Assembly: GCA_001599355.1 (NCBI GenBank)
Contig: BCGQ01000008.1
Coordinates: 1 to 64,000 of the forward strand
From: Nakazawaea peltata
Lineage: Eukaryota > Ascomycota > Pichiomycetes > Alaninales > Pachysolenaceae
Length of the DNA: 64,000 bases
Direction of reading: 5' to 3'
In this document: positions 17,965 through 64,000 of the stretch, in pieces
Layout: each line of letters opens with the position of its first letter
How positions within the stretch are numbered: the first letter of the stretch is position 1
Notes under the pieces: generated by a model
Seen by the model: only the letters and a program-made list of their open reading frames with translations
Database searches by the model: none
Told to the model about the DNA's origin: nothing
Program-made: the position numbers and the translations under genes

Positions 17965-19896
<1,932 letters not shown>

Positions 19897-25738: not shown

Positions 25739-26249
25739 CTTTTACTTGTTAATCTTTGACATCTCGGTTAAAATCCCGCGACAACCGATCTCCCTTATAT
25801 ATTATTTCCCCCAAACCTCATCCCTCCACGGTATGCATGAAAAAAAAATCGTTATCGGCCAAATCTGGGAGCGCGCAAACCGCCGGTTTCCTTATCTGCA
25901 TAATTTAGGAGGGAGACAAGGGGATGTAGGGGGGAGGGTAGAAGAGATGCGATGGGGAGGTAGGCAGGATCAAGGGTCTGGGGATTAATGTTGACGGGGA
26001 AGAAGAATGGGAATGGCCAGTTGCCCGAAAGGCATTATCACCGTCGATTATCTTCGAGACCAACCAGTTGAAGTTGGCTCGATCAACTCAGCATAATACG
26101 AAAATAGATAATGATACTAGTGAAAATTTTGGGTAAGCAATCCCAAAAAGGAAACAAGCCAAATGTAGGAGAAAACTACAAGCACACAAAACTACTAAGC
26201 GAAACAGAGCACAGTAAATATTTCATTACTAAGAGATAGTTCTTGCAAG
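25739..26249. promoter_or_regulatory. Divergent promoter between the oxygenase and the Rdx gene
   Basis: 511 bp. A TATA-like TATATTATTTC lies at 25796-25806, near the oxygenase start. GC-rich GCGCGCAAACCGCCGG at 25870-25885 and a G-rich stretch (25908-25985) follow. No regulator can be assigned. Confidence 0.4.
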
Positions 26250-40300: not shown

Positions 40301-40859
40301 CCGCGTACCATCGAAATCCACCTTAAAGAACATTATTTCTGCTTTAGCATTGAATTCTGCTGCTACCGAAGGTGGCATTGGATACTGCAAGTTACATTAC
40401 AATACCAGATTGGTCAATCTGTTAGTATTGTATGTTGGTATTTGTGCCATCAACAATGGATCATCTACATTTGCTACAAGTTCTTCAGAATGTATCTTCT
40501 TGAAGGATCTCATTCTGGAATCCGATATCGAGTTACAATACCATTTGTTTGTACTGATTTGTAACCAATTGAGATATCCAAATTCTCATACTTATTGGTT
40601 CAGTTCTCTTTTGATCTTTATGTTTGGATCTCAATCTTTGTGGGGTGCAAAGACCGAAGATATCCAACAAATCATCACTAGAACTTTACTTGAACGTATC
40701 ATTGCGAACAGACCTCATCCATGGGGATTGTTCATTACATTTGTCGAATTATTAAAGAACAACAAGTACTCATTCTTTGATTTACCGTTTACCAAGGAAT
40801 CCCCCGAGCTCCAAAGGTTATTCGGATCATTGCAGAAGTACATTGCATCACCTAATTAA
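34365..40859 (+). CDS. CDC39: CCR4-NOT scaffold subunit Not1
   Basis: 2164 residues, the scaffold of the CCR4-NOT deadenylase and transcription complex. The N-terminal HEAT region runs to about 800; the MIF4G domain that binds Caf1/Pop2 is about 826-1050; the Caf40-binding DUF3819 helices are about 1135-1310 ([19 protein letters not shown]); the C-terminal Not1 superfamily domain that binds Not2/Not5 occupies about 1800-2160 ([19 protein letters not shown]). A Gln tract (about 1090-1124) links MIF4G to DUF3819 and a long Gln-Ala alternating tract (about 1342-1411) follows DUF3819. Many CTG codons occur throughout, so a standard translation misreads dozens of residues as Leu. A leader intron probably precedes it. 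Confidence 0.96.
37636..37738 (+). repeat. Glutamine (CAA/CAG) tract in NOT1
   Basis: About 34 codons, mostly CAA/CAG with a few CTC/CTT Leu, located in the linker between the Caf1-binding and Caf40-binding domains. Mixed codons suggest an old, interrupted tract. Confidence 0.9.
38392..38600 (+). repeat. Gln-Ala dipeptide tract in NOT1
   Basis: About 70 codons of mainly (CAA/CAG)(GCT/GCA/GCC), with a 6-bp periodicity, in the linker before the C-terminal half. All Ala codons here are GCN, none is CTG. Confidence 0.9.
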
Positions 40860-47348: not shown

Positions 47349-50300
47349 ATGATTGCTTCTCAGGGAACTGTCGGAGATGAAACGAGGGCCTCCGAGCTCC
47401 AACGTACCATCTCTATGAGCCCCGAGAACGACTCACAAGCTTCCGCCAACCTTAGCGCCGCCAGCGTACAGCCTATCCCGAAGAAATCGCTGTTAATCAA
47501 GACTGATAAACCGCGGCCTCATATGTGTCCGATTTGTACGCGGCTGTTTGCTCGTTTGGAACATTTGAGACGTCATGAGCGTGCCCATACAAACGAGAAA
47601 CCATTCCAGTGTGGCGCTTGTGGTAGATGCTTTGCCCGTCGTGATTTGGTCTTGAGGCACCAACAAAAATTACACGCCTCTTTACCACCACCATCAAATA
47701 AACCAAGATCTAGAAAACATAACTTGAAGAATGAGCAGGTTCTGAGACTGAACGCTGAGCTGGCGTCTGATTCCACCGCTGCCATCACACGTGACTACCT
47801 TAATGAGAACATCAATATCGTTTATAAAAATACCAACGCACGTTTACCACTCCCAAGTGATGGCGCCAATGGCGGTATGGGGTACGATGACGCTGAAGAT
47901 CCGGATCTGCCCTCGGCTAAGAAAAAGAGACCATACACAAAGAGAAATAAACCGAAGGAAGAGAACGATGCTGCGCACTCGCTTCCACACACTCCGGCTG
48001 TCAATTCAGGACCTTCACCAGGGAGTCGTCTGTTATATTCCTTGGATGGAGCGTCCCCTCAGGTCATTGTAGGTTCCATTTTCCCCAACCAGCAGCAACA
48101 GCAACCTTCTCCTATCACATCCAATACTTCTCCTCCAGATAAATTACTGAACGATGAGTTGGTGAGCACACTTTTCCAGAACTCGACCCCAAGCTCATAC
48201 ACTTCACAGAGTATGTACCAAAGTATAAGTGAGGACACTGTAGGATACCTGCCACAGCAGCTGACTACACCAGCTCTGCAAGTAAGAGTCAAACAGAGAC
48301 ATTCATCTTTCAGTGCTGCTTCTCTGTCTTCATACACTTTACTGAAAGACCTGAAAGACATCCAGGAACATGATATCCCAGAACTGCCTCATCAGGTAGG
48401 TTTTGCAACACCTCAACTTACGCTGCTGGAGCTCTCAGAGAAGGCTGTGATGGCTGGTTTCGATTTGAATGCCCTTGGTGTCGAAGAATCCAATGTAAAT
48501 AATACCGGCACCAATAGCACAGATGGTTACTTTGATCAAAAATCTCAAGCCACCACACCTTTCGAGTTCAATATCACCCCAGGTGGTTCCTTAATAGATA
48601 TACCTCTTTTACAGCAATATTTACATGTTGGTGGAGCTGGAGGAGGAGCTGGATTTGAGACTCTGCGACTGGGTTCCAGTTCTCAGGCAAGTCCAGCTGC
48701 TGGAGGTAGTGGTGCTGCTTCTTCTACTAAGATGAGCTTATCCAATAGCGCACCAACCGATGATTGGTTGACAGATTTCATTAATACTCCATTCGACGTT
48801 ATGAATTTCCCCGTACTGTCCCATCATATCGGTTTCACCGACTCTCCTCCAAGCAGAGACTCACCTTTCAATATCCCGGACGATATTCCTTCCTTGTTCA
48901 GATCCAGACAGTTGGATTTATCCAAACTGATGTTACCATTACAACAAGAGGATTTCTTTACCGAGGCTACAAGACTGAAAATCTTGGAAAAGAACAACTT
49001 ACAAAGCAATCAATTCCCGTTGTTGGAAGATTTGAACAAGTATATGGGTCTTTATGAGGTTGAGTTCGACAAATATTTCCCCTTCATTCATATGCCAACT
49101 TTGAAATTACATAAAGAAGACGATAACCATCTCCCGTTGATGTTACTGATGCTGTCGATTGGAGCATTGTACTCTTTCCACCTGACTAACTCTTCTATCT
49201 TGGCCAATTTGAGCAGGTTCTCAATTCATAATTTCATGGCCAGACAGAAATCGTTCAGGAAGTTCAATGACATCCCATTACCCATCACTCAAGGGTTAAT
49301 CTTGGATATTTATTTGGGTATGTTCGGTAATGAAGTTGAATTCAATAAGGTTATTCCAAAACATTTACATTCGGTGATTTGTCTTGTCAAATCTACCAAG
49401 TTGAATGTGGCTTTAGAGAAGTTTGTCACTCCTCCACTGGTATTCCAACTGGATCCTCATCAACAAAGTCAGAGACAGTTGAAGTTGAACTACGAGTATT
49501 TCATTTTACTGCAAAGTAGAATCAGAACTTTACACACGTTGTACTATATAAGTGTATTGTTTCTGTCATTGTGTGGTAATAATATCGAGTTGTCTTGTGA
49601 TGATATTCAAAATGGAACTCCTTGCTTCTTGGAGGAATTATGGAAACTGGATGATGAACATCTGTGGTTACAAATCTTGGATGGACATAAGATTGTTATT
49701 GACTCGAAATTCTCGTTGATTCAAATCAGTAACGGTGAGACAATGAAAGATATCTTGACAGATTTGGACAACCATTACTCTGACCGTAAGTTAGGTTTCA
49801 AGACTTTACTCAGTGGGATGATGTTCATCAGCGAGACCATTTTCAAGCAACGTACTGGATTACAACAGGAACAAAATTTACTGTTGAAACTGACTAAATG
49901 GAGAATGAACTCGAGACCCGAGATTGAAAGTTTATTGAAGTCATGGGAATCCATATATGTGAAGAATGGTGGTATTTTAGTTCCAAGAGAACTGAATTTA
50001 CATGTCATTAACCAAACTCCTGTATTGAAGTTGATTCTTCCATTGCTCTCGTTTGCCAAAATTCGTAAATGTGTTTATTTCACTCCAATTTTGCAACAAA
50101 TTTGGTCCAAAGATTGGGAAAATATGAGTCGTGAGATGAAGAAGAATTTGGAGGCAGATCCTGAACTGTTACGTGATCTGACCAGTTACTCATTAGATGT
50201 TGTCAGTCTTTGGATTGAGATCATTTCCATCTCGAAAGATCTGGAGAAGACTTCTATTAGAACACCTATCTTCTTCTTGACTTGTATTTTTGCTGCAATT

Positions 50301-50747
50301 ATGGTGATTGGCGAATACTTATTCGCTACCGAGACTTGGGCCAAGAATTACCTCAATCATATCAATCCGTCTGCCTCTCCATCGTCGGTCAATTCCATGT
50401 CATCTAACACTTCTAATTCGGGTTCTTCTAGCTCGTTGAATGCTATCGACAGAGTACTTTGGTTGAAGATCCAACAATTGATGAAGAAACTGGAAACCAA
50501 CCTCAACACCACATCGAGTCCAGAGAATTTCGATAGTTTGAACGAGAATGTCTCGAAGTTGGTACTTGAACCATCCTTAGATTTGAAACGTACTCTGGAG
50601 ATCATTTCAGAGTCTAAGCTTGCATCAAAGAGTTTGAATATCGGTATTAGAATCCTTGCAGATGCTCCAGTCTGGCCAGTGGCTTTGGTTTTTGCAGAGG
50701 CTCTCAGGGCCAGAGCCAATCATATTAAAAACGAACAATACAAGTAA
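47349..50747 (+). CDS. C2H2 zinc-finger transcription factor, Rsf2/Tda9/Adr1 group
   Basis: 1132 residues. Two adjacent C2H2 fingers: C60, C63, H76, H80 (MCPICTRLFARLEHLRRHERAH is split by TNEKPFQC) and C88, C91, H104, H109, with the inter-finger linker TNEKPF and recognition helices ARLEHLRRH and ARRDLVLRH, as in Rsf2, Tda9 and Adr1. A basic nuclear-localisation stretch (KKKRPYTKRNKPK) follows near 190. The C-terminal half (about 545-1000) is the fungal-specific regulatory domain, with YEVEFDKYFPFIHMPTL and LMLLMLSIGALYSF. Relatives control respiratory carbon sources and stress. Exact orthology within the group is not settled. Confidence 0.85.
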   Translation: MIASQGTVGDETRASELQRTISMSPENDSQASANLSAASVQPIPKKSLLIKTDKPRPHMCPICTRLFARLEHLRRHERAHTNEKPFQCGACGRCFARRDLVLRHQQKLHASLPPPSNKPRSRKHNLKNEQVLRLNAELASDSTAAITRDYLNENINIVYKNTNARLPLPSDGANGGMGYDDAEDPDLPSAKKKRPYTKRNKPKEENDAAHSLPHTPAVNSGPSPGSRLLYSLDGASPQVIVGSIFPNQQQQQPSPITSNTSPPDKLLNDELVSTLFQNSTPSSYTSQSMYQSISEDTVGYLPQQLTTPALQVRVKQRHSSFSAASLSSYTLLKDLKDIQEHDIPELPHQVGFATPQLTLLELSEKAVMAGFDLNALGVEESNVNNTGTNSTDGYFDQKSQATTPFEFNITPGGSLIDIPLLQQYLHVGGAGGGAGFETLRLGSSSQASPAAGGSGAASSTKMSLSNSAPTDDWLTDFINTPFDVMNFPVLSHHIGFTDSPPSRDSPFNIPDDIPSLFRSRQLDLSKLMLPLQQEDFFTEATRLKILEKNNLQSNQFPLLEDLNKYMGLYEVEFDKYFPFIHMPTLKLHKEDDNHLPLMLLMLSIGALYSFHLTNSSILANLSRFSIHNFMARQKSFRKFNDIPLPITQGLILDIYLGMFGNEVEFNKVIPKHLHSVICLVKSTKLNVALEKFVTPPLVFQLDPHQQSQRQLKLNYEYFILLQSRIRTLHTLYYISVLFLSLCGNNIELSCDDIQNGTPCFLEELWKLDDEHLWLQILDGHKIVIDSKFSLIQISNGETMKDILTDLDNHYSDRKLGFKTLLSGMMFISETIFKQRTGLQQEQNLLLKLTKWRMNSRPEIESLLKSWESIYVKNGGILVPRELNLHVINQTPVLKLILPLLSFAKIRKCVYFTPILQQIWSKDWENMSREMKKNLEADPELLRDLTSYSLDVVSLWIEIISISKDLEKTSIRTPIFFLTCIFAAIMVIGEYLFATETWAKNYLNHINPSASPSSVNSMSSNTSNSGSSSSLNAIDRVLWLKIQQLMKKLETNLNTTSSPENFDSLNENVSKLVLEPSLDLKRTLEIISESKLASKSLNIGIRILADAPVWPVALVFAEALRARANHIKNEQYK

Positions 50748-51005
50748 TAAATCGAATAATGAATTATAAATTCTAAGTTGTAGATACATCGTTACACCAG
50801 CGGATCTAACCGACGGGCAGGGGCACACAATAGCGCGCGGTCTTCAAGGGCAAGCAAAAAAATTTTCTTTCTTTCTTTTTTTCAATTAGAAAATTTATTT
50901 GTCTCTTTTTGATGAGATGAGGTAAGGATTGGAGGCTAAAGGTCTGCGTTGAAAGTTTTTTACGTCACGTTGTTGAGTCAGGCTAGAAGATTATTGAGCA
51001 GTAGT

Positions 51006-52325
51006 ATGACTGTTGAAAACTTAGTACAGAAATCTGCCGCAGAAGGTGCTGCCAGTAGCACCAAATTACAAGGCCGTCTGTTATTTGAACTGATTGGTTC
51101 CCCTACTAAGATTGTAGCGCCGATGGTTGATCAAAGTGAGTTTCTGTGGCGTGTATTGTCAAGAAAGTATGGAGCCACTTTGTGTTATACGCCGATGTTA
51201 CATCTGCGTTTATTTGCCACTGACCCTAAATATAAAGAACGTATGTGGGACGACAACTTAGATGGCAACCCCCAGTTAGATAGACCACTTGTACTGCAAT
51301 TTTGTGCTAATGATGCCGATTATCTTTTAGAAGCTCTGAAAAAAATCCAACACCAAGTCGATGCGGTTGATTTGAATTTGGGATGCCCTCAAGGGATTGC
51401 CAAGAAGGGCAAATATGGGCTGTTCTTGATGGACGATTGGGACTTGATTTATAAGTTGATCAACACTTTACATAAGAATTTGGATGTTCCCGTTACACTG
51501 AAGATCAGAGTTTATGACGATTGGGAAAAGAGTTTACTGTATGCTAAGATGTGTCTTAGTGCTGGTGCTCAGTTCTTGACAATTCATGGCCGTACTAGAG
51601 AGAAGAAAGGTCAACTGACTGGATTAGCCAATTGGGCAGTATTGAGATATATCCGTGATAATTTACCCCCAGACACCGTGTTCTTCAGTAATGGAAATGT
51701 ACTTTACCCTGAAGATATCGATAGATGTATGAAAGAGGTGAATTGTGATGCTGTGATGTCTCTGGAAGGTAATTTATTCAACCCTGGAGTCTTTTGGACA
51801 GAGTCCACAGATATCGAGAAGCAACATCCAAGAGTAGATAAGTTGACGAGAGAATATTTCGAGATTTTGAAACTGCATACATCGTATCTGTCTCGTCATG
51901 GATTTAAGAATCATTTATTCAAATATCTCCGTTACTTTTTGCTGGAGCACACCGATATCAGAGCTATGGTGGCCAAATTACATACGGATGCAGATTTATC
52001 GAAATTCGAAGATATTGTTATTAAGATTGAAGAGACAGTGGAGAAATTACTCGAAGATCCAGAGAATCTGGAAAAAGACAAACTTATTGAGATTGAAGAT
52101 CCAGATTCTCCACCTGCTTGGGGAGGTGTGTATAAGAAAGTCCCATATTGGAGATGTCAACCATGCTTTAGAACAGTCAATGGTGTCAAGGGTAAAGATC
52201 TTATGGGAGAACATTGGGCTAGTGTCAAACTGAATATTGACCAACATTCCAGTCTTATTAAGAAGAGATCTGCAGACTCGGAAGAATCGGTTCTGAAGAT
52301 AGCTAAGATTGAGCAAACAGCATAA
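51006..52325 (+). CDS. DUS1: tRNA-dihydrouridine synthase 1
   Basis: 439 residues from the ATG at 51006; the open frame reaches 50949 only through a TTG. It reduces uridines 16 and 17 of tRNAs with FMN and NADPH. Conserved blocks: KIVAPMVDQSE, DAVDLNLGCPQGIAKKGKYG with the catalytic Cys127, FLTIHGRTREKKGQ, FFSNGNVLYPEDI. CTG codons at 51144, 51204, 51498 and 51762 fall in SEL-A-WR, LH-A-KLF, VT-A-KIR and MS-A-EGNL of the S. cerevisiae enzyme, all Ala. This gene is the cleanest internal proof of CUG-Ala decoding. The C-terminus has a lysine-rich tail with a late CQPC-like motif. Confidence 0.96.
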   Translation: MTVENLVQKSAAEGAASSTKLQGRLLFELIGSPTKIVAPMVDQSEFLWRVLSRKYGATLCYTPMLHLRLFATDPKYKERMWDDNLDGNPQLDRPLVLQFCANDADYLLEALKKIQHQVDAVDLNLGCPQGIAKKGKYGLFLMDDWDLIYKLINTLHKNLDVPVTLKIRVYDDWEKSLLYAKMCLSAGAQFLTIHGRTREKKGQLTGLANWAVLRYIRDNLPPDTVFFSNGNVLYPEDIDRCMKEVNCDAVMSLEGNLFNPGVFWTESTDIEKQHPRVDKLTREYFEILKLHTSYLSRHGFKNHLFKYLRYFLLEHTDIRAMVAKLHTDADLSKFEDIVIKIEETVEKLLEDPENLEKDKLIEIEDPDSPPAWGGVYKKVPYWRCQPCFRTVNGVKGKDLMGEHWASVKLNIDQHSSLIKKRSADSEESVLKIAKIEQTA

Positions 52326-52595
52326 TAAATGTCATGATACGTATTTAGATGTAGAGCGGCCGTACCGTAACGTTTCCACCATACCGTAATCCCTGCTATC
52401 TCACTGTAACCCCCACCCCCCTCCTGCTCTTCCCCTGCTTATCGGATATTTTATCCGGAGTCGTGTGCAGATTACCAAAACCATATCTAAATTTATTCCC
52501 CGAAACACCTCTGGCTTACCCCCCATTCAAGATACGGCTAATTATATTGGGAACCACAATATCCAGACATTAGACGCAAATATCTGAACTACAAG
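52326..52595 (+). promoter_or_regulatory. VPS70 upstream region
   Basis: 270 bp with three ACCGTAA/ACTGTAA-like words (52364-52412) and a C-rich run CCCCCACCCCCC (about 52414-52425). No factor can be assigned. Confidence 0.3.
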
Positions 52596-54971
52596 ATGGT
52601 AATCAGATTGGAAGACGATGTCGAAAACGGTTTGTCCGTTTCTGAAGAAGACCGCCTTTTAAGCAACCCAAGCGATGGCGACTACTCTGCGGCATCGGCA
52701 AGGGACTTAAAGCTGAACCAAACGTTGAAGCAATTACAACTGAAGAGAAGAAGACAGAAGTTTTGGGGGTACTCAATGCTTGGAGTCATCTTTATTTTCT
52801 TGATGAACTTAATCTTCTTACCCCGCACTTCGTTAAGCAGAGATTTAAGACGTATCCATGGCAACAAGTTGACCACCTCGGAAATTAAGAGGGTTTTCAT
52901 CGAGTCATTGACTGAGGAGAACAATGCAAGAGAGATTTTGATGAAATATGTGTTTGAACCGCATATGCTGGGTCAAGGTTACGGTTTGGTGGAATACACC
53001 GAGCAAATGTTCAAAGACTTTGGCTTAGACACCTACATTGAGACGTTTGATATTTGGTTAAATAGACCGGTTGACCTGAGCTTAAAATTGCTTGGCGACG
53101 ATGGAGAGGTCGTGTACGATGCCAGTTTAGAAGAGGACGTATTAGAGGAAGACGAGACCACTGGTTATGAAAATAGAATCCCCGCTTTCCATGGTTACTC
53201 TGCCAACGGAAACGTCACTGCCAAATTTACCTTTGTTAACTATGGTCTGAGAGAAGATTTCGAATTGTTAAAAGAGAGGGGTGTCGAAGTCAATGGTACT
53301 ATTTGTATTATGAGATATTTGAACATTTTCAGGGGTTTGAAAGTCAAACATGCCGAGATGTACGGCTGTGCAGGTGCCGTTCTTTATAGTGATCCATATG
53401 ATGATGGTGAAATTACCGTTAAGAATGGTTATAAACTGTACCCTGAGGGACCTGCAAGAAACCCTTCGTCTATCCAAAGAGGTTCGGTTGAATATTTCAC
53501 CGATTATCCTGGTGACCCAACTACTCCTGGCTACGGAAGTGTCCCAGGTTGTGATAGACAATCTGCCGAAGGAAGAGTACCAACTATCCCATCTATCCCT
53601 ATCAGTAGTAGATCTATCGAGCCAATCTTGAAGAAGTTGATCGGCAAGGGTCCTAAAGACTTGGGATGGAAGGGTGACATCGATTTTGACTATTCTCTGG
53701 GTCCTAGTGAGATGGAATTGAACTTATTCAACTTACAAGATTACAATATCACTCCTATTTGGAACGTTGTCGGTGAAATTAAAGGTATCATGCCAGACGA
53801 ACAGATCATTATTGGTAACCATAGAGACTCATGGGTTCTTGGTGGACCAGGTGATCCAAATTCCGGGTCTCTGACTATGTTAGAAATCATCAGAGGATTC
53901 TCGGAATTGAAGAAACTCGGTTACAAACCTTTAAGAACTATCAAGTTCATCTCTTTGGATGGTGAAGAATATGCCATGTTGGGATCTACTGAATTTGGTG
54001 AGACTCATCTGAAGGAATTGCAAAAGAAAACCGTAGCCTATTTGAACCTTGATAGCAGTGTATCTGGATCTCAACTTAGAATCAACAGTAACCCATTACT
54101 TGAAGATTTGATCTACAAGGTTCTGAAACAAACACCATATGTGTACGACGAGGATCCAACTTACTCTCTTTTCAAGCTGTGGGATAAGCTGACCAATGCT
54201 AGTATTCTGTTCCCTGGTTCAGGAACTGATTATGCTGTTTTCCAAAACCATTTGGGTATTCCAATTGTCAATATGGCTTTCAGTTCTGGACCTGAGGATC
54301 CAGTTTATCATTACCATTCCAATTTCGATTCTTTCCACTGGATGGACACTTTGATCGACCCAGAGTACAAGTACCACAACTGTATGCTGAAGTTCTTGGG
54401 ATTATTGACCTTGACTTTGAGCGAGAGTGAGGTTTTACCAATGAGTTCATCCAAATACAGCAAGAAAATCCACACTTACTTCAAAGGATTGTATGATGAG
54501 ATTCCAACGGGATGGTTCGAGAGTCCAATTGATAAATCCGTACTTAAATATGATGTTGGATTAGAAGATGTTAGCACTTTCTCTGAATTGCTCGGTGTAT
54601 TCGACGGCAAGATCAAAGATTTGACCTTTGCTTCCAAAAACTTTGATCTGTACGTCAAATCCTTACAAGAAGGTATTAGAAAAGATTATCCATGGTTCAA
54701 ATATTGGAAGAAGGTTCGTTTACTGATCCAGATCAAGTTACTGAACTTCAAATTGGCTCACCTCGACAGACTTTTCTTAGATGATGAGAGTTTAGTCGAT
54801 AGAGAATGGATGTTACATACTATTTTTGCTCCTCATAGAGATTTAGGTTACACCGGAGACGTTTTGCCTGGGTTCCATGAACTGTTGATGAGAAAAGACT
54901 TCAATGATGCTGTCAAATGGTTGGGAATTTTACTTAAGAAGTTTGACGATGTCGAGAAGAAGTTGAGTTAG
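52596..54971 (+). CDS. VPS70: Vps70-like M28 metallopeptidase / transferrin-receptor family
   Basis: 791 residues, type II membrane protein: cytosolic 1-56, one span at about 57-76, then a PA domain (about 200-340) and an M28 peptidase domain (about 395-620) and a helical dimerisation domain. Zinc-ligand positions of glutamate carboxypeptidase II are kept: H409 and the Asp of GGPGDPNSG, the catalytic pair in LDGEEYAML, the Asp in YLNLDSS, and the His in VYHYHSNFD, so it may be catalytic. There is no PPxY motif in the cytosolic part, which favours Vps70 over Tre1/Tre2. Role in S. cerevisiae is vacuolar protein sorting. Confidence 0.87.
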   Translation: MVIRLEDDVENGLSVSEEDRLLSNPSDGDYSAASARDLKLNQTLKQLQLKRRRQKFWGYSMLGVIFIFLMNLIFLPRTSLSRDLRRIHGNKLTTSEIKRVFIESLTEENNAREILMKYVFEPHMLGQGYGLVEYTEQMFKDFGLDTYIETFDIWLNRPVDLSLKLLGDDGEVVYDASLEEDVLEEDETTGYENRIPAFHGYSANGNVTAKFTFVNYGLREDFELLKERGVEVNGTICIMRYLNIFRGLKVKHAEMYGCAGAVLYSDPYDDGEITVKNGYKLYPEGPARNPSSIQRGSVEYFTDYPGDPTTPGYGSVPGCDRQSAEGRVPTIPSIPISSRSIEPILKKLIGKGPKDLGWKGDIDFDYSLGPSEMELNLFNLQDYNITPIWNVVGEIKGIMPDEQIIIGNHRDSWVLGGPGDPNSGSLTMLEIIRGFSELKKLGYKPLRTIKFISLDGEEYAMLGSTEFGETHLKELQKKTVAYLNLDSSVSGSQLRINSNPLLEDLIYKVLKQTPYVYDEDPTYSLFKLWDKLTNASILFPGSGTDYAVFQNHLGIPIVNMAFSSGPEDPVYHYHSNFDSFHWMDTLIDPEYKYHNCMLKFLGLLTLTLSESEVLPMSSSKYSKKIHTYFKGLYDEIPTGWFESPIDKSVLKYDVGLEDVSTFSELLGVFDGKIKDLTFASKNFDLYVKSLQEGIRKDYPWFKYWKKVRLLIQIKLLNFKLAHLDRLFLDDESLVDREWMLHTIFAPHRDLGYTGDVLPGFHELLMRKDFNDAVKWLGILLKKFDDVEKKLS

Positions 54972-55201
54972 ATACTAAATAGCTTAATGTGATATCCTGA
55001 TTTGAGGAAGTGGTAGTTGGTGGTATCTGAATAAATGTAATTGGGGAAGAAAGGGGAGGGAAGGGGGTTATTATGGTAGTGCACCGTATGCTAATTAGTC
55101 CCAAACCGGAAATCAATTTTTCATCCAACTTTTCCACCCTCAATTTCAAAATTATTCATATTTCTAATCGAATCAAATAACCATCAAATCAATTAATCAC
55201 A

Positions 55202-55738
55202 ATGTTCAGAGGTATTCGTTCTTTCTCATCCACTGCTAATGCCTTCGGTAAGAAGGTTTTCTTCGACACTGCCGTTGGAGGTCAAAAGCAACCGAGAATC
55301 GTATTTGAATTATACGACGAAGTCGTCCCAAAGACCACCGAAAACTTCAGGGCTTTATGTACTGGAGAGAAGGGTTTCGGATACAAGGGAACTGTTTTCC
55401 ACAGAGTTATTCCTCAATTCATGTTGCAAGGTGGTGATACCGACCATCTGAATGGATTCGGTGGTAAATCCATCTACGGTGGTAAATTCCCAGATGAGAA
55501 CTTTACTAAGACTCATGACAAGCCATACTTGTTGTCTATGGCTAATGCTGGACCAAACACCAATGGATCTCAATTCTTCATCACTACTGTTCCATGTCCA
55601 TGGTTAGATGGAGCTCATGTTGTTTTCGGTGAGGTTGTTGAGGGAACTGAGGTTGTTGATTTCATCGAATCTCAAGGTTCTAACAGTGGTCAAACTAAGC
55701 AAAAAATCGAGATTGTCGAGAGTGGTGAAATCGCTTAG
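55202..55738 (+). CDS. CPR3: Mitochondrial cyclophilin (peptidyl-prolyl isomerase)
   Basis: 178 residues. The basic, Ser-rich [18 protein letters not shown] is a mitochondrial targeting sequence; the rest is a complete cyclophilin: [29 protein letters not shown], catalytic [34 protein letters not shown] (with the cyclosporin-contact Trp). S. cerevisiae Cpr3 is 182 residues. A CTG at DH-x-NG is at a variable position. It helps protein folding in the matrix and permeability-transition regulation. Confidence 0.93.
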
Positions 55739-56383
55739 ATGTATATAGGAATATATTTTATGGACTAAGGTTTCTAATGTTTGTAGATGTTGACTGGGGA
55801 ATGTGTTGACTTGGTGAAGGTTGTGGAGTAGATATGAATTGCGAAAAATCCTGAGATACTTGATGTTACCCCATCCACTCTTACTTGAGATCCCATAGTT
55901 AAGACCCCATAGTTAAGATCGCATACTTAGTATTTCGTAAATTGCTATCCATATAGAATTATCTTAGTTTGATCTCCATACTTAAGAGTTTCGTAAACTG
56001 CTCGCAAAATAAGAGTACTATTAAAGATATGGAGTACAGGGTATCTTTGATAAGTTGACCCCAATTAGGCTAATAAGTACCTAAATCACTCTTACTTCAT
56101 CTCTTACTTCATCTCTTCTCCACCTCATCCATCTCTCCTACTATCCACTATGTCCCTCTCTTGATTCCCCACTACCCATTTGGTCGTTCCCCTAGTATCA
56201 TTTGACCGAAAACAGCGCACAAACAGCGCCAACAAACCTGCGCACAATTCCTCCCATTCTCCGCCTCCCCTAAAGTTTCCCGCCTTTATAAGGACGGACC
56301 TATGAACTGATAAGAAGCAGAAGACACCGGTTCCGAAAGTTGTAATCGATTCAATTCACTGATACACCAACACAACCACCAAG
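55739..56383. other. Intergenic region between CPR3 and ENT3 with short repeats
   Basis: About 645 bp. CCATAGTTAAGA occurs twice at 55893-55920, and the block CATACTTA..TTTCGTAAAYTGCT occurs twice (from about 55922 and 55977). A second tandem CTTACTTCATCT is at 56094-56122. They may bind a factor or be replication-slippage products. No gene is seen. Confidence 0.4.
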
Positions 56384-57742
56384 ATGGATCAGATCAACAA
56401 GACATTGAACAACTTATCGTTGTATGAAGTCAAACTGTACGTACGGAAGGCACAGAATGTGGTGTTAAGTTTGAGTGAGATGGAGGCGAAGGTCAGAGAG
56501 GCCACTAACAATGAACCTTGGGGGGCTCCATCGTCTTTGATGCAACAGATCGCCGCTGGAACTTACAATATTCGTGAAAGAGTCGAGATCAGCAATATGA
56601 TCTTCCGTCGTTTCACCGAGAAATCCGCCCATGAATGGAGACAGATTTATAAGCTGTTACAATTGTTGGAATATGTCATCAAGAATGGTAGTGAAAAATT
56701 CGTTGATGCTGCTAGGCAGAACCTTAGCATTATTCAGATGTTGAGATCTTTCCATTACATTGATTCTCAAGGTCGTGATCAAGGTGTTAATGTCCGTAAT
56801 AGGGCTAAGCAGTTGATTGCTTTATTGGAAGATGAGTCTCTGATTAGACTGGAACGTAAGAAGCTGAGACAAAACCAAAAGAAGTTTGGTGGAGTTGCTG
56901 GAGGTAAGACTTCTGTTAATCCTAATCATCGTTTCACCAGTACTTTTGATGATGATGATGATGGAGGAGATTATGAGGCTAATGTTGGATCTTATTCTCT
57001 GAGTACATTCGATGATTCTGGGTATTCTAATAGAGTATTTGGAGATGGAGGCGTTTATGGTGAAAGATATGAGGAGGAAAGAGCTGCTGGAGGTTCTGGC
57101 AATGATCAATATGAGGAATATGAGGTTGCTCCGTCTCGTAGTTCTAGAAAGAACTCTAGAACTAGTAAGCCAACTACTAAGACATCTACTGTTACTGCCA
57201 GACCTCAACTGGATCTTGATTTGTTTGGAGATTCTGCACCTGCTGCTGCACCTGCTACTGCTACTGCCACAGCTGCTGCTCTGGATGATGATGAAGATGA
57301 TTTCGACGATTTCCAAAGTGCCGTACCAGCAACCAACAATGGAGCCACTTTGAATTCAAATAACCTTACCGATTTGTTCTCGTCGCCAGTATCTGCATTC
57401 AATCCTCTGCCAACAGCGACATATTCTGCTCCACTGCCAGTACCAGGTGCTGTCCCATCTCAACCATCGTATAATTTGGCTTCCACTTCGATCACTACAG
57501 GTCCAGCACCAGCTAAACCAAAAGCAGATGCATTTTCTTCTTTGTTCTCCACTGCTAAGACTACCAGCCATAGTCTGAACGCCAGCCGTTCGGTTTCTGC
57601 TGCCAAACCGGCTCCACAAGCCGCTCCAGCTCCAGCTCTGTCTGACGATTTGTTTGATTCCTTCACTCCTGCCCCACAGACCACTTCAACGAACGGAAAT
57701 TCCGCTGCAAAAAACAATGACATCGATTTATTGTCATTCTGA
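56384..57742 (+). CDS. ENT3: Epsin-like ENTH adaptor Ent3
   Basis: 452 residues. The ENTH domain (about 10-150) is very close to Ent3: SLYEVKLYVRKAQNVV, EATNNEPWGAPSSLMQQI, FHYIDSQGRDQGVNVRNRAK. It binds PI(3,5)P2 and clathrin at Golgi and endosomes. CTG codons at 56654, 56849 and 56864 align with Ala in Ent3 (IYKALQLL, IRAERKKAR), further proof of CUG-Ala. The disordered tail holds acidic-Phe motifs for gamma-ear adaptins (DDFDDFQSA, about 301-310) and a clathrin-box-like DLLSF end. Confidence 0.94.
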   Translation: MDQINKTLNNLSLYEVKLYVRKAQNVVLSLSEMEAKVREATNNEPWGAPSSLMQQIAAGTYNIRERVEISNMIFRRFTEKSAHEWRQIYKLLQLLEYVIKNGSEKFVDAARQNLSIIQMLRSFHYIDSQGRDQGVNVRNRAKQLIALLEDESLIRLERKKLRQNQKKFGGVAGGKTSVNPNHRFTSTFDDDDDGGDYEANVGSYSLSTFDDSGYSNRVFGDGGVYGERYEEERAAGGSGNDQYEEYEVAPSRSSRKNSRTSKPTTKTSTVTARPQLDLDLFGDSAPAAAPATATATAAALDDDEDDFDDFQSAVPATNNGATLNSNNLTDLFSSPVSAFNPLPTATYSAPLPVPGAVPSQPSYNLASTSITTGPAPAKPKADAFSSLFSTAKTTSHSLNASRSVSAAKPAPQAAPAPALSDDLFDSFTPAPQTTSTNGNSAAKNNDIDLLSF

Positions 57743-57983
57743 GTTTAGAGTCCATAACTTATATACGTACATTGTTCTATTATAGTCGTTTGTAGTAAAA
57801 CTGGGGTATTATTGATATTATTTCCACGACCTTTTATATTTCCTCTTGATTTTTGAGAGCTGATATTTATTTTGTATAATTTCCACGACCTTTGGATATC
57901 AGCTTCATTTTAAGCTGAGAAAGAGTAGATGGTAAAGATTTTAGAGATCAACTGGCTACAATAGTGGATAATTGAGAGTTAAA
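57743..57983 (+). promoter_or_regulatory. BET5 promoter with a duplicated 14-bp word
   Basis: TTTCCACGACCTTT occurs exactly at 57821-57834 and 57880-57893, 59 bp apart, in the 241 bp between ENT3 and BET5. It may be a binding site pair or a short duplication. Confidence 0.4.
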
Positions 57984-58590
57984 ATGACCATATTTTCATT
58001 CTGGATCTTTGATAGACATTGTGAGTGATATCGATATTGATTGGTTGGGAGGCTTACTAACTATGAATAGGTAACTGCATATACAGCAGGGAATGGTCAG
58101 TCGCGACACTGAAGAAACAACAACAACTGGGAACAGTGGGGAATAACACAAATGGATCGGTTAATGTGAAGAATGATGATAATGCAGCAAAGTTATTGTT
58201 CGGTCTGTTATTCTCCTTGAAACAGATCTCGGCCAAATTGAACCCCTCAGAAGACGTCCTCAATAACTTCCAATCATTCTCCACTCTGAAATATAGATGT
58301 CATCTTTTTGAGAGTGGGACGGGGTTAAAATTCTGTTTATTGACTGATCCGAAAGTGGAGAATATGCAATTCGCATTGAGGGATATTTACACTAATTTGT
58401 ATCTTACAACGGTGGTTGAGAAGTGAGTATTATTTGAAAATGAGAATTGGAATTGGAATTTGAAATACTAACACATAATTAAAGTGGATTATCGCAAGTC
58501 GATTTCAAAGAGGGAGAATTCATCGAATGTGAACCTTTTTTAAGTGGAGTAGATAAGTATATTGGTTCATTACAAGCATTCACTACATAA
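57984..58590 (+). CDS. BET5: TRAPP complex subunit Bet5, three exons
   Basis: Split over three exons, so no long frame shows it. Exon 1 57984-58020 (MTIFSFWIFDRH), intron 1 58021-58070 (50 bp, GTGAGT, TACTAAC at 58055-58061), exon 2 58071-58422, intron 2 58423-58484 (62 bp, GTGAGT, TACTAAC at 58466-58472), exon 3 58485-58590. The 164-residue product has the longin-like sedlin fold: IFSFWIFDRHCNCIYSREWS equals Bet5 IFDRHCNCI...REW across the first junction; AAKLLFGLLFSLKQIS, STLKYRCHLFESGTGLKF and LLTDPKV follow. It is a small core subunit of the TRAPP tethering complexes (Ypt1 GEF). Both splice junctions restore the family sequence, which supports them strongly. Confidence 0.92.
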
Positions 58591-58928
58591 CAAATAGCAT
58601 AGAAGTATAGATATAGTATATAGTTGATTGTATGATGGTGATTGCCATATTTTCTATGGTATTCCCTGACACTACGATCGTTCTCAATTCATGACTTCGA
58701 TTACCACCAACTCTTATCATCACCTCGTATCACCACTACCACCTCGTATCACCACCTCGTATTATCCCTTTACTCTTATGTCTGCCTACCCCTGTCTTTT
58801 CTGTAAACCCTCTTTATCAGGAACCCTCCCCAATCAGGAAATCAACACCTCTCAAAAAAGAAAAAAATCAAAATCGATCTCAAAATCAAAATAAGGTACA
58901 CTTCATCGGTAGCCTAGATCATACAAAT
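58591..58928 (+). promoter_or_regulatory. SEC8 upstream region with a triple 10-bp repeat
   Basis: 338 bp. CACCTCGTAT occurs three times (58721-58730, 58740-58749, 58753-58762) at about 200 bp before the SEC8 ATG. The open frame covering it is random. An A-rich stretch (58855-58895) precedes the start. Confidence 0.4.
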
Positions 58929-61901
58929 ATGCTGTTCGAGCGTAAGAAAAGTGAACCCAGTCCATTGGATGAGGCCTCGGAACTCCTTTTCGTCGTGGAA
59001 TTGGAATGGCCCAAAGTCGCACTGAGAAATTTCAACCCCCTCGACGTGGTATTACCCTTGTTGGATAACACGTCAGTGGGGATGGCACACAAGAAGGAGA
59101 ATTTTCTCCAATTGGAGAGGAAGCTTGAGTCAACGTTGAGTGGTTGTATCGAGATGAATAGAAAACAGTTCTTAGACCATTTGTCTTATTATACTGAGGT
59201 GTCTAATACCTTCTCTAAGAGTTTCAATTTGATCGAACAAATCTCGCAAGATTTGTCTAAGACCAACCAAAGTTTGATCTCCGATAATAAAAGTTATATG
59301 AAGGAATTGAATCAGAATTCGGTAGTGTATGGACAATTGTTGGATACTATCGAACTGATAGAGTTTGTTAAGACTTCTACTGAGGAATTGAACTCATTGA
59401 TCAATAACGATAAGAATTTTGTAAGGGCTCATGAATTGATTCTTAAATGCTCTGAATTGGCTGTTAAATATCATCTTTGGAGATTGCCACTGTTACAATC
59501 AGTAAAGAACCAATTGGAGAGCCAGAAAATCGTCCTTTTCGAAGTCATTGTAGAAGAAATCCATAATATCATGTACTTGAAAGTGAACGTCAACAAGAAT
59601 TTATTAGTCCACAATGAGACCAACTCATTACTTGATATTACAAGTAGATGTACGTTGATTAACAAGAAATTCAACGAATTCATGTCTAAATTACAAGATG
59701 TTCCTCCTTATTCACCAGATGAAGAAGATGAGTCCCTCAGTTTACAGCATTTGATTTTGGAAGACGATCAAAATTTCAATAAATTACAAAATATGTTGGT
59801 CATTTTATTCAGATTGAATAAGTTGGACAACTTGATGGAAATTTTACTCACGAGACAACCTGCTGAATTGCATCAATTATATAATAAAGTAGTGGAAGAT
59901 ATCAAATTGAGGAACCCTCAATCTAGTTCGATGATGGCTGCTAATTATTGGCAAGATAATAACGATCTTATCCATTTAGAATTTGGACCTTCGCCTCAAG
60001 AATCGGCCAGATTACAAGAATTTTTCAACGCTATAACCAATAGAAGTTTGATGGTATTACAATATCATCGAATTGTGTATGAGATCCTGGTCCGGTTTGG
60101 TCAAGACTATGCTATTGATAAGCTGGTTGAATTTATTGGTAGTTCTTTATTATCAATTGTTTCGCAATATACGGTTGATGAGGATATAGTTATTCTGTAT
60201 CAAAACAAGCAAAAAGCTGAAGAATCTAATTCATCTAATGGATCCTCATTTGCAGCAGCAGCAGCATCTGCCGCAGCATCTGCCGTATCGGCAGCAGCTT
60301 CCGCAGTCTCCCAGTCTACTTCATCTAACCCCTCAAATTTATCTCTGACAAATCAGAGCATTTTACATTCCAAAAAGAAATCAAAAAAGAAGTTATTCGA
60401 GTTCAGGGCTTTAGAAAACGAAGAGATGACCAAATTGTCTTTACAATTACAGGAATTCTTCCCAAGTTTCAATGTGGACGACAAGATCTACTTGGATAGT
60501 AACGAGATTAACTCCAATTTGGAGACAGTAGTAGAACCAGATGTGTTTAACATGAGAGTAATTCTTAGTCCATTATTGGTATTTGTGGAAGGATCCAAGA
60601 GTTTAATCCCATTGAGTAAGAAAGAGTATGATTCTATGGCAGTATTCACCGATTTCATGAGATCTGAGTATTTGAAGTACTTCAATCAAACTTTACAGTA
60701 TTATTATGACACTTTATGTTCTCCAACCGACTCATTTGATATGTTAATTAAAAATGAGGGATTATTTAAAAGTTGTCAAGTATTCCAGAAATTCTTATAT
60801 GCGGTATTAGAGACCTTAAATACGTCATTATTCTACAAAGAGGAATATTTATCATGTGTATTCAATTTGTTGAGTGCATTGTCCAATAGAATTCATGGAT
60901 ATTATCAGGAAGTCACCGAAGAAGAATATTATGGATGGTTGAATAATGCCAAGCTAAAACAATTGTCATTACAAATTATTAAAAACCAAGATGAATCATT
61001 AATTCCTAAAGAGGTAGATATAGTGTTACAAAATATCGATATCCGGAACGAAGTGACAAATTTCCGGATTTATACCGAGAAATGTTCTCAATTGTTGCAC
61101 TGTTTAGATTGGTTATTGGAATGGTTACAAGAAATGATGCGTGTTGAAGCAGGACCTCGTCGTAACGGATATGGCAATAACGAGCAACAATTGGATATCG
61201 ATGGGTTGAAACAAAATTGGGAATTACTCGATATCAATTATAATAACCGAGGTGGTAGTATTGGACAAAGTAAAAAGAAATTATATTTGACTTTGAGTGA
61301 TCGCACTTCGGTTAAACTTACCAGATTTGTCGATAATCTCGGAGTTTTGCGTGATAACATTTCATTGGTATTGAGGTATAATTTGATTTACCAGTCGATA
61401 TATTCTGTGTTGAGGTTCTTCAGCACGAACGAATTTTATCTCCCAGGTGAAATCAATGAACCAGATTCAAATATCTTGAAGTTAACTACAGTTCTTTTAA
61501 ACAGTAACAAAATCATGACAAATAATTTAGGAGCTATTCGGTCCGAACAATTGGTCACCGGGTTGGCCACATTCCTTGATAATTTGTTCATTACTGGATC
61601 CTTCAAGATCAAAAGACTTAATGAAAACGGTTTGAAGAAGATCTTCCTCAACATTTTGATCTTACAACAATTATTACGTAATCTTTTCAATGTCGAGGTT
61701 AAATTCATAAAGAGTTTACAGTATTTTGAGAATTTCAAAATTAACGATAAAGGCTTGATAGACCAAGTAAGTAAAGGGAAAAACACTTTTAGTTATGAGG
61801 AGAATCGGAATATGATCAGGTTGATTTATAGTGAGGATATGAAGAATCAGAAGAGGTTTGATGACTCGATGCTGAAATTGGCACAGATGTATAAGAAATG
61901 A
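58929..61901 (+). CDS. SEC8: Exocyst subunit Sec8
   Basis: 990 residues (S. cerevisiae 1065). The N-terminal coiled-coil part has the Sec8 order: WPKVALRNFNPLDVVLPLLDN, a helical bundle (LERKLESTLSGCIE), then LLDTIELIEFVKTSTEELNS and RLPLLQSVKNQLESQKIVLFEVIVEEIHNIMYLK, which matches the conserved Sec8 segment for vesicle tethering. The rest is CATCHR-type helical rods. An Ala-rich insert (about 441-465, ASAAASAVSAAASAV) interrupts the middle; all its Ala codons are GCN. Exocyst tethers secretory vesicles at bud tip and neck. Confidence 0.87.
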   Translation: MLFERKKSEPSPLDEASELLFVVELEWPKVALRNFNPLDVVLPLLDNTSVGMAHKKENFLQLERKLESTLSGCIEMNRKQFLDHLSYYTEVSNTFSKSFNLIEQISQDLSKTNQSLISDNKSYMKELNQNSVVYGQLLDTIELIEFVKTSTEELNSLINNDKNFVRAHELILKCSELAVKYHLWRLPLLQSVKNQLESQKIVLFEVIVEEIHNIMYLKVNVNKNLLVHNETNSLLDITSRCTLINKKFNEFMSKLQDVPPYSPDEEDESLSLQHLILEDDQNFNKLQNMLVILFRLNKLDNLMEILLTRQPAELHQLYNKVVEDIKLRNPQSSSMMAANYWQDNNDLIHLEFGPSPQESARLQEFFNAITNRSLMVLQYHRIVYEILVRFGQDYAIDKLVEFIGSSLLSIVSQYTVDEDIVILYQNKQKAEESNSSNGSSFAAAAASAAASAVSAAASAVSQSTSSNPSNLSLTNQSILHSKKKSKKKLFEFRALENEEMTKLSLQLQEFFPSFNVDDKIYLDSNEINSNLETVVEPDVFNMRVILSPLLVFVEGSKSLIPLSKKEYDSMAVFTDFMRSEYLKYFNQTLQYYYDTLCSPTDSFDMLIKNEGLFKSCQVFQKFLYAVLETLNTSLFYKEEYLSCVFNLLSALSNRIHGYYQEVTEEEYYGWLNNAKLKQLSLQIIKNQDESLIPKEVDIVLQNIDIRNEVTNFRIYTEKCSQLLHCLDWLLEWLQEMMRVEAGPRRNGYGNNEQQLDIDGLKQNWELLDINYNNRGGSIGQSKKKLYLTLSDRTSVKLTRFVDNLGVLRDNISLVLRYNLIYQSIYSVLRFFSTNEFYLPGEINEPDSNILKLTTVLLNSNKIMTNNLGAIRSEQLVTGLATFLDNLFITGSFKIKRLNENGLKKIFLNILILQQLLRNLFNVEVKFIKSLQYFENFKINDKGLIDQVSKGKNTFSYEENRNMIRLIYSEDMKNQKRFDDSMLKLAQMYKK

Positions 61902-62199
61902 GCAACCAGGTCACCACTGACTTTATGTATAACAATAGACTTAAGTATATTAGCCGTGGTAGCATTAGCCCTTAACATCGTAACACCAGTGTTACCGTCC
62001 GCCTGCGCTGCCCTCTCTATCTGCGCTACCTGCACTACCTGCAACCTTCTCCGCACTAAACCGCATGTGATTTCTTCCGCGTTTCGTATTTCGCTCACAT
62101 CGCGCTATTTGTTTACAAAATTAAAATTTTTCAATTCTTGATCATATGGCGACTCGAATATTGGATTAACCGCCGTGTATTTATTTATTTATTGCCGCG
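61902..62199. other. SEC8-ELO intergenic region
   Basis: 298 bp: SEC8 3' end, an ACACCAGTGTTACC word, a C/T-rich block (61995-62050), and an AT-rich promoter with TTTATTTATTTATTG directly before the ELO ATG. Nothing else recognised. Confidence 0.4.
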
Positions 62200-63201
62200 A
62201 TGGAATACTTACCAACTATTGACAGACCATTCGGTGTTAAGTTATGGCCACTTTTTGACCAGGCTGTTGCCAAACTGACTTGTGGACACTTTGTTCCGAG
62301 CCAGTTCGAGTTTGTCCAAGGCTCTTTACCGCTCTCCACTTTGCACCCAGTTTTGGGAATGATTCTGTTCTATTACCTTGTCATTTTCGGTGGTAGAAGC
62401 TTGATTCGTACTTTGGGAATCAAACCATTAGTTTTGAACGGATTATTCCAATTGCACAACGTTTTCTTGACCACTTTGTCTTTCACTTTGTTGATTTTGA
62501 TGGTTGAGCAATTGATTCCAACTATCCTGAGACACGGTCTTTTCTATGCTATCTGTGATGAGGCATTCTGGACTCAGGAGATGGTTTGCTTGTATTATTT
62601 GAACTACATCACCAAGTATATCGAGTTCATCGACACTGTTTTCCTTGTAGTTAAGCAAAAGAAGTTGACTTTTTTGCACACTTATCACCATGGACTGACT
62701 CTGTTATTATGTTACACTCAGTTAATCGGTAAGACTCCAATCAGTTGGGTTGTCATCTCTTTGAACTTGGGTGTTCATGTTGTTATGTATTTCTACTACT
62801 TCTTGGCTGCTAGAGGTATCAGAGTCTGGTGGAAGGAATGGGTCACCAGATTCCAAATTATCCAATTTGTCTTGGATTTGGGTTTCGTCTACTTTGCAAC
62901 TTATCAAAAAGTTCTGTTCTCGTATTTCCCAGATACTTTGCCATACTGTGGTGACTGTGCCGGTCAAATGCAAGCTGCTGTCTATGGTTGTACCATCTTA
63001 TCCAGTTACTTGGTATTATTCATCGCTTTCTACATTGAAGTCTACAGAAAATCTGGTTCTAAAAAGCTGAAGCTGGTCAAGCTGGTTAGAGGTGGTTTCT
63101 CCGCCAAGGTTAATGAGTACGTCAACTTGGAGGGTGCCAAGTTGACCAGTGCTACTCCATCCCCTGCCCCTTCTAAACTTAGAAGAAGAAGAAAGGATTA
63201 A
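62200..63201 (+). CDS. ELO3: Very-long-chain fatty-acid elongase, Elo2/Elo3 type
   Basis: 333 residues, seven membrane spans, ER. The HxxHH box is H160-TYH163-H164. Neighbouring blocks LYYLNYITKYIEFIDTVFLV and WWKEWVTRFQIIQFVLDLGF agree with Elo3 nearly residue for residue. Two CTG codons right after the box (62695 and 62701) give YHHGATALLCYTQL with Ala, identical to Elo3; Leu would break a conserved stretch. C-terminus is basic (RRRRKD). It makes C24-C26 fatty acids for ceramides. Elo2 versus Elo3 is not settled by eye. It converges with the dynactin gene, 35 bp apart. Confidence 0.93.
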   Translation: MEYLPTIDRPFGVKLWPLFDQAVAKLTCGHFVPSQFEFVQGSLPLSTLHPVLGMILFYYLVIFGGRSLIRTLGIKPLVLNGLFQLHNVFLTTLSFTLLILMVEQLIPTILRHGLFYAICDEAFWTQEMVCLYYLNYITKYIEFIDTVFLVVKQKKLTFLHTYHHGLTLLLCYTQLIGKTPISWVVISLNLGVHVVMYFYYFLAARGIRVWWKEWVTRFQIIQFVLDLGFVYFATYQKVLFSYFPDTLPYCGDCAGQMQAAVYGCTILSSYLVLFIAFYIEVYRKSGSKKLKLVKLVRGGFSAKVNEYVNLEGAKLTSATPSPAPSKLRRRRKD

Positions 63202-63236
63202 ATATAGTACATAACTCTAGTATTTATTTACACAAT

Positions 63237-63728
63237 TTAGATACCCCCAACGATAAACCGTTTCTTGACATCGAGCTCGATGCTCTTCTTGTAACCCGGA
63301 TTCAAATCTTTGAATAACAATCCTGGACCCGCAGGATCGTGTTTCACGTGTGTATAGCTTGGTACCACCATATTTGACCTCACATGGACTTCAGGGTCTA
63401 ATATACAACAGTCTCCTATGACGCCCTCTACTTTGCAACCTTGACCGACAATGACACGCGACCCCACGCTCGTAGACGAGATATTACTATTGGAATCAAA
63501 GAAGTTGAAAGATCCAACCTTAATTGGTCTCTTACTCAGGTCAAAAACACATTTGGTCCGAAGATAGCAATATTTTCCAATTTGAATTGAGATCTGATGT
63601 TCGGAGTTTCCGAGAAGTTGAACGTCTTTGTCGACGAGAGAGTTCCCCAGGATTGCGATTGTATTTTTCAGGGTGATATTTGCTTCTCGATGGATCTGGT
63701 TACCCGATTGGGTAACTATGAACGACAT
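63237..63728 (-). CDS. Dynactin p25 subunit (left-handed beta-helix)
   Basis: 163 residues. Hexapeptide repeats form a left-handed beta helix: SISIQIGKYCYLR-like coils, VGSRVIVGQGCKVEGVIGDC and CCILDPEVHVRSNMVVPSYT match the p25 (DCTN5) order including GDCCILDPEV and VPPxT. p25 sits at the dynactin pointed end and helps early-endosome dynein cargo; S. cerevisiae lacks it but filamentous fungi (Neurospora ro-12) have it. Its retention in this yeast implies a fuller dynactin complex. ATG at 63728. Confidence 0.78.
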   Translation of the reverse strand: MSFIVTQSGNQIHREANITLKNTIAILGNSLVDKDVQLLGNSEHQISIQIGKYCYLRTKCVFDLSKRPIKVGSFNFFDSNSNISSTSVGSRVIVGQGCKVEGVIGDCCILDPEVHVRSNMVVPSYTHVKHDPAGPGLLFKDLNPGYKKSIELDVKKRFIVGGI

Positions 63729-64000
63729 TTTTGGCTTGGAGATTCGGATCTATCAAGGGCAGTCATAATGACGGAGAACAAGACCTGGCCCAAAAGGGAT
63801 AAGATCAGATCGAGTCGCGCTCCTCAGGGATCGGAGCATTTTACAAACATCAGCCCATGTAGCAGCAGTTTACAAATACCATTAATTTTAGCAATCTACG
63901 AATTTTCATTTTAGTACCGAGATTTGCGCTGCCTACCTAAATAGGAGACCTGAGGCTGGGCGTTAAGAGTTTCTTAGTTGGGGATTTGGGGATTTAGCAG
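63729..64000. other. Window right edge, upstream of dynactin p25
   Basis: 272 bp; the plus-strand frame 63597-63914 overlaps the p25 gene antisense and looks random. No feature is called. Confidence 0.35.

Follow-up and report, generated by a model that had tools for sequence, protein, structure and literature searches.

How is the codon CTG translated in this budding yeast? The question is raised by a window (the whole stretch of DNA analysed, 64,000 nucleotides, C8:1-64000; assembly size 11,631,020 bases, 11 contigs; window G+C 40.1%) in which a sequence-only reading took CTG to mean alanine, pointing to twelve codons as examples and adding that CTG is not rare. We found that all twelve are CTG and stand in frame. 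Across the 23 main ORFs counted (two small overlapping ORFs and an opposite-strand ORF at 25007-25759 were omitted), there are 251 CTG among 16,026 codons, stops included, and NOT1 holds 39 in 2,164; the codon is indeed not rare. When CTG and GCN are counted together as Ala-type codons, CTG supplies 251 of 1,085, exceeding GCC (199) and GCA (165).

The C2H2 zinc-finger, Fungal_trans transcription factor at 47349-50747 holds 39 CTG in 1,132 codons, and the ORF at 818-5803 (minus strand) is CTG-poor, with 4 in 1,661; the latter also encloses 16 undetermined bases (N) scattered over 1430-1905. Long glutamine and Gln-Ala repeat tracts run within NOT1 (34365-40859).

To prevent bias, the window proteins were translated with CTG masked as X and then aligned to solved structures. 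The best (S. cerevisiae) alignment per search was counted, in five genes: RNR1, ERG11, ENT3, the C-terminal domain of NOT1 and alpha-tubulin. Human DUS2 and ELOVL7 served as remote comparators for the DUS1 and ELO sites. The ORFs and codons concerned are the following:

17965-19491, minus strand: ERG11 (CYP51) ORF; 10 CTG, 10/10 aligned to S. cerevisiae (A6, Q2, V, L)
18547-18549, minus strand: ERG11 CTG codon 315; S. cerevisiae residue Ala
27436-28317, plus strand: alpha-tubulin ORF (C-terminal 293 aa); 4/4 CTG aligned (S, R, P, R; no Ala, no Leu)
30991-33396, minus strand: RNR1 ribonucleotide reductase large subunit ORF; 17 CTG, 14 aligned to S. cerevisiae Rnr1 (A7, E2, R2, P, S, D; no Leu)
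31588-31590, minus strand: RNR1 CTG codon 603; S. cerevisiae residue Ala
31720-31722, minus strand: RNR1 CTG codon 559; S. cerevisiae residue Ala
34365-40859, plus strand: NOT1 ORF; 39 CTG, 12 in the aligned C-terminal domain (A2, S3, D2, V, T, F, R, Q; no Leu)
51006-52325, plus strand: DUS1-like tRNA dihydrouridine synthase ORF; 439 aa, 17 in-frame CTG, including those first named at 51144, 51204, 51498 and 51762
51762-51764, plus strand: DUS1-like CTG codon 253; Ala in remote human DUS2 too (by eye)
56384-57742, plus strand: ENT3-like epsin ORF; 12 CTG, 4 aligned to yeast Epsin-3 (3onk; A, K, A, A)
56654-56656, plus strand: ENT3 CTG codon 91; S. cerevisiae residue Ala
56849-56851, plus strand: ENT3 CTG codon 156; S. 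cerevisiae residue Ala
56864-56866, plus strand: ENT3 CTG codon 161; S. cerevisiae residue Ala
58929-61901, plus strand: SEC8-like ORF; 9 CTG, 5 aligned to yeast Sec8 (S, N, I, S, T, by eye)
62200-63201, plus strand: ELO fatty-acid elongase ORF; 9 CTG, of which 62695 and 62701 are CTG in a paralogue (L108) too

The residues that face the 44 CTG sites of the five genes in S. cerevisiae are A18 R5 S5 D3 Q3 E2 P2 V2 L1 K1 T1 F1. Alanine, which never faces the other five leucine codons in these alignments (0/209), faces CTG at 18/44 sites, whereas leucine faces CTG once in 44 and the other five leucine codons at 141 of 209 sites. Serine stands opposite 5 of the 44, against 85 of 179 for true serine codons. 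The alanine share at CTG is lower than at GCN (68/125), a difference that is not significant (p 0.16). Six of the twelve codons first named are comparable with an S. cerevisiae orthologue, and all six face alanine (RNR1 559 and 603; ERG11 315; ENT3 91, 156 and 161). The remaining six look less tidy. Read by eye against the remote DUS2, the four DUS1 sites face P, L, C and A, that is, one alanine in favour of the claim and one leucine against it. The two ELO sites, 62695 and 62701, face I and P in ELOVL7 (by eye). Neither human protein is close enough to settle its sites. The nearest genomic ELO paralogue carries CTG at both ELO positions, where a remoter one shows Gly and Met; divergence among the three paralogues is so high that even true alanine codons rarely stand opposite alanine. 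Nor was the description of the other sites, where Thr, Val, Pro or Ser but not Leu had been expected, more than partly right: leucine is scarce as predicted (1/26) and serine occurs (5/26), but 14/26 are R, Q, D, E or K.

How strongly do these columns speak for alanine over any other amino acid? The likelihood of each reading was computed from residue frequencies at all other codons with BLOSUM62 pseudocounts and scored as log10 odds over background; Sec8, whose sites were read by eye, was excluded because its alignment is weak and truncated. Over the 44 sites of the five genes alanine scores +8.0, glutamine -0.4, serine -2.7 and leucine -46.4, which puts the alanine reading ahead of the next-best, glutamine, by 10^8.4, of serine by 10^10.7 and of leucine by 10^54. 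In a leave-one-out control on codons with at least 15 sites, 46 of 47 were decoded correctly, the exception being GTG, assigned to Ile by 0.1. Taken gene by gene, RNR1, ERG11 and ENT3 each yield alanine. Three points go against it: NOT1 alone leans slightly to serine (0.68 versus -0.21 for alanine), alpha-tubulin alone gives arginine, and the five Sec8 sites are neither Ala nor Leu.

Paralogues within the genome were examined in the same manner. Nine sugar-transporter genes, located on contigs C1, C4, C5 and C11 and on another part of C8, were aligned mutually, and 61 of their 68 CTG sites (those with at least 5 other members aligned) were used; these sites are non-independent, as paralogues share columns. 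Alanine scores +1.08 over the 61 sites, Ser -3.93, Thr -4.34 and Leu -10.87, and in the control on this alignment 43 of 43 codons were decoded correctly. Column 309 carries GCN in seven members and CTG in the other two. Seven CTG sites fall in strongly conserved columns (at least 75% agreement among the other members), and only 2 of these 7 face alanine.

Profile scores give a further comparison. Pfam scores were obtained for ten window proteins, each translated three ways with CTG set to Ala, Leu or Ser, and 19 families matched under all three; overlapping or sub-threshold families were left out of the sum, and so was Fungal_trans, which is unlisted with Leu. The sum over the 19 families puts alanine 86.5 bits above leucine, with 18 families in favour and one tied; against serine the margin is 19.4 bits, with 10 families in favour, 7 opposed and two tied. 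The seven families that favour serine over alanine, ENTH and p450 among them, do so by 0.1-0.6 bits, while the Dus family in the DUS1-like protein (239.5 bits with Ala, 231.5 with Ser, 224.0 with Leu) alone contributes 8.0 of the 19.4. The Fungal_trans domain lost from the listing when CTG is set to Leu belongs to the product of 47349-50747.

Which tRNA could read CUG as alanine? The sequence-only reading had called for a CAG tRNA of alanine identity, and one was found, with G3:U70, A73 and a short variable arm of 5 nt. Its gene lies outside the window, at C4:81426-81498 (locus L023; a single BLAST match), and was the only one of 24 matches to a short-variable-arm, intron-free CAG pattern that ARAGORN accepted as a tRNA; the label Leu that ARAGORN gives it is based on the anticodon only. 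The pair G3:U70 occurs in just three of 38 distinct tRNAs of the genome, namely Ala(AGC), Ala(UGC) and tRNA(CAG). At position 37, tRNA(CAG) has G and Ala(AGC) has A; tRNAs that read CNN codons usually have G37. G3:U70 is described as a typical recognition feature of alanyl-tRNA synthetase (PMC3874161). These counts come from an incomplete inventory. Of 608 first-look candidates, 63 were scored by the Rfam search; 56 of the 63 were read, and the other 7 are score-identical to a read gene. The set of 38 leaves out duplicates as well as two odd ARAGORN calls, one in L108 and one in L098.

No CAG tRNA of leucine or serine type emerged from exact-pattern searches, which a divergent or intron-bearing copy could escape. 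The class-II CAG pattern gave three matches, only one of them a tRNA, Leu(AAG). A Leu/Ser A-box pattern returned 16 genes and none with CAG: nine Leu (CAA x5, UAA x2, AAG, UAG) and seven Ser (AGA x3, GCU x2, UGA, CGA). Locus L056, called Val by ARAGORN, was typed here as an intron-bearing Leu(CAA). All seven serine tRNA genes have a long variable arm, which tRNA(CAG) lacks.

Orthologue columns, genomic paralogue columns and the identity elements of tRNA(CAG) thus concur with the original claim; the columns are mainly neither leucine nor serine. Judged from sequence, nuclear CUG is almost certainly translated as alanine in this yeast (NCBI table 26) by way of tRNA(CAG). We envision that this tRNA, found in one copy, would receive alanine from alanyl-tRNA synthetase by virtue of the G3:U70 pair in its acceptor stem, and would pair with CUG by Watson-Crick. 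Leucine would then retain UUA, UUG, CUU, CUC and the near-unused CUA, with tRNA-Leu(UAA), (CAA), (AAG) and (UAG) as readers, and CUG would have been re-adopted as an ordinary alanine codon. Alanine charging of tRNA(CAG) in vivo, the fidelity of its decoding and a place for this yeast within the Alaninales are what we infer. The window G+C of 40.1% would speak against Pachysolen tannophilus, at about 30%; an assembly of N. ambrosiae has 42.3% G+C and 13.2 Mb (PMC10106607).

Other meanings of the codon must be weighed against this one. That the standard code holds, with CTG as leucine and the alignments misleading, is so improbable that we give it practically no weight: it can draw on the ARAGORN label, on the leucine opposite one ERG11 site and on the leucine that remote human DUS2 has opposite one DUS1 site, but leucine at 1/44 sites versus 141/209 for its other codons, log10 odds of -46 and exact-pattern searches in which a leucine-type tRNA(CAG) was not found all oppose it. 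That CUG means serine, as it does in the Ser1 clade (Candida) and the Ser2 clade (Ascoidea/Saccharomycopsis), appears very improbable. This reading ranks between alanine and leucine in the Pfam sum, leads by the few tenths of a bit noted above in 7/19 families, and is best for NOT1 alone, but it falls behind alanine by 10^10.7 over the 44 sites and by 10^5 over the 61 transporter sites; serine is opposite CTG at only 5/44 sites compared with 85/179 for true serine codons, and the tRNA has G3:U70 and A73 in place of a long variable arm. Both the standard code and CUG-Ser were rejected on Pfam scores, orthologue likelihood and transporter likelihood.

A subtler possibility is that decoding is ambiguous, mainly alanine with a minor share of leucine, arising either because LeuRS mischarges tRNA(CAG) or because tRNA-Leu(UAG) wobbles to CUG. 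The tRNA(CAG) carries A35, G37 and A73, which are contacts of yeast LeuRS, and a tRNA-Leu(UAG) gene is present whose wobble to CUG is possible in principle. G37 is held in PMC5951914 to cause about 3% leucine mischarging of the C. albicans tRNA-Ser(CAG), and one de novo peptide study suggested 10% leucine at CUG in Pachysolen, a figure deemed mistaken in PMC8645108. On the other side, leucine is found at 1/44 sites, in alignments that are blind to misreading of a few percent, and more than 99% alanine is reported for CUG in Pachysolen tannophilus (PMC8645108). We regard such ambiguity as quite unlikely and retain alanine as the meaning of CUG.

The tRNA-Leu(UAG) gene deserves attention in its own right. 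The only one found (locus L053, C4 about 804,518-804,725, minus strand) carries a 120-nt intron 3' of position 37, long for a yeast tRNA, that folds at -37.9 kcal/mol versus -19.5 for shuffles (z -5.6, 0/200). An intron-free Leu(UAG) pattern gave 5 matches, three of which are Ser(AGA) genes and two non-tRNA. CTA, in turn, is nearly unused in the window: 14 of 16,003 sense codons, compared with 247 CTT and 121 CTC. It makes up 14/382 of CTT+CTC+CTA, whereas GTA makes up 191/810 of its own box (p 9e-21). According to PMC5951914, the tRNA-Leu(CAG) of some Leu1 yeasts has highly structured introns, 134-318 nt long, in which the authors see an indication that this tRNA is selected against. By analogy, our guess would be that a similar pressure acts on tRNA-Leu(UAG) here. 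A more speculative extension, which we consider rather doubtful, is that the alanine meaning of CUG is guarded by throttling tRNA-Leu(UAG), the one tRNA that could still read CUG as leucine: the intron should slow its maturation, and the CUR half of the leucine box would be departing from leucine, CUG having been recaptured by alanine and CUA being emptied. Among the matches listed, no title or abstract (supplements aside) mentions a long folded tRNA-Leu(UAG) intron in the Ala clade, and the folded intron and near-absence of CTA are possibly new details. Together they offer a way to test whether competing leucine tRNAs are suppressed in such yeasts.

Where might tRNA(CAG) have come from? With the anticodon omitted, its identity is 50/71 to Val(UAC) and 49/70 to Ala(AGC); in a hand alignment without the anticodon loop it shares 49 positions with Val and 47 with Ala. 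The D stem and anticodon stem are nearer Val, and the variable arm, the T stem and the 3' acceptor strand with A73 are nearer Ala. Weak trees group it with Val(UAC) (support 0.94 in one and 65/89 in the other), and a tree test does not reject the Ala grouping (p-AU 0.345). The comparison is incomplete, since pattern searches turned up neither a Val(AAC) nor a Val(CAC) gene (the AAC pattern perhaps being too strict) and no ARAGORN tRNA was found in L112-L114. In sequence, tRNA(CAG) may be a Val/Ala mosaic and not a plain anticodon mutant of tRNA-Ala; its body, no farther from tRNA-Val than from tRNA-Ala, is possibly a new detail.

In practical terms, standard-code translation would place wrong residues at about 1.6% of window codons, including conserved sites of RNR1, ERG11 and ENT3, so that table 26 is required for annotation and for heterologous expression of genes from this yeast.

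How does this yeast compare with systems already described? Muhlhausen 2016 and Riley 2016 are said to be the discovery papers. An Ala clade with Nakazawaea, Peterozyma and Pachysolen and a tRNA-Ala(CAG) was described by Krassowski et al. 2018, who report codes verified by LC-MS/MS in 18 species at key positions (PMC5951914); the order Alaninales includes Nakazawaea and Pachysolen (NCBI taxonomy). As outlined in PMC5951914, PMC11415595 and PMC11540330, the CUG-Ala code of Alaninales (table 26) shares with our case a nuclear CUG read as alanine, a dedicated tRNA-Ala(CAG) and the loss of the ancestral tRNA-Leu(CAG), of which the exact patterns found no copy here. Since this code and its tRNA have been described there, both code and mechanism are already known, and the present genome is a further case. 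The CUG-Ser1 (Serinales) and CUG-Ser2 (Ascoideales) codes, of table 12 type, are alike in that the same codon was captured by a new tRNA(CAG) whose synthetase is anticodon-independent, but the amino acid and the tRNA class differ, the tRNA here having a short variable arm and G3:U70. In Ashbya mitochondria, as described in PMC3874161, CUU and CUA also passed from the leucine box to alanine through a tRNA whose G3:U70 is recognised by alanyl-tRNA synthetase, although that case is mitochondrial and concerns other codons. Finally, CUG is portrayed in PMC5951914 as relatively rare in code-changed clades and as tending to avoid conserved sites. Unlike that picture, CUG is common here and occupies positions of RNR1, ERG11 and ENT3 at which S. 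cerevisiae too has alanine, which makes this genome a good example of a finished reassignment in which CUG is again a major alanine codon.
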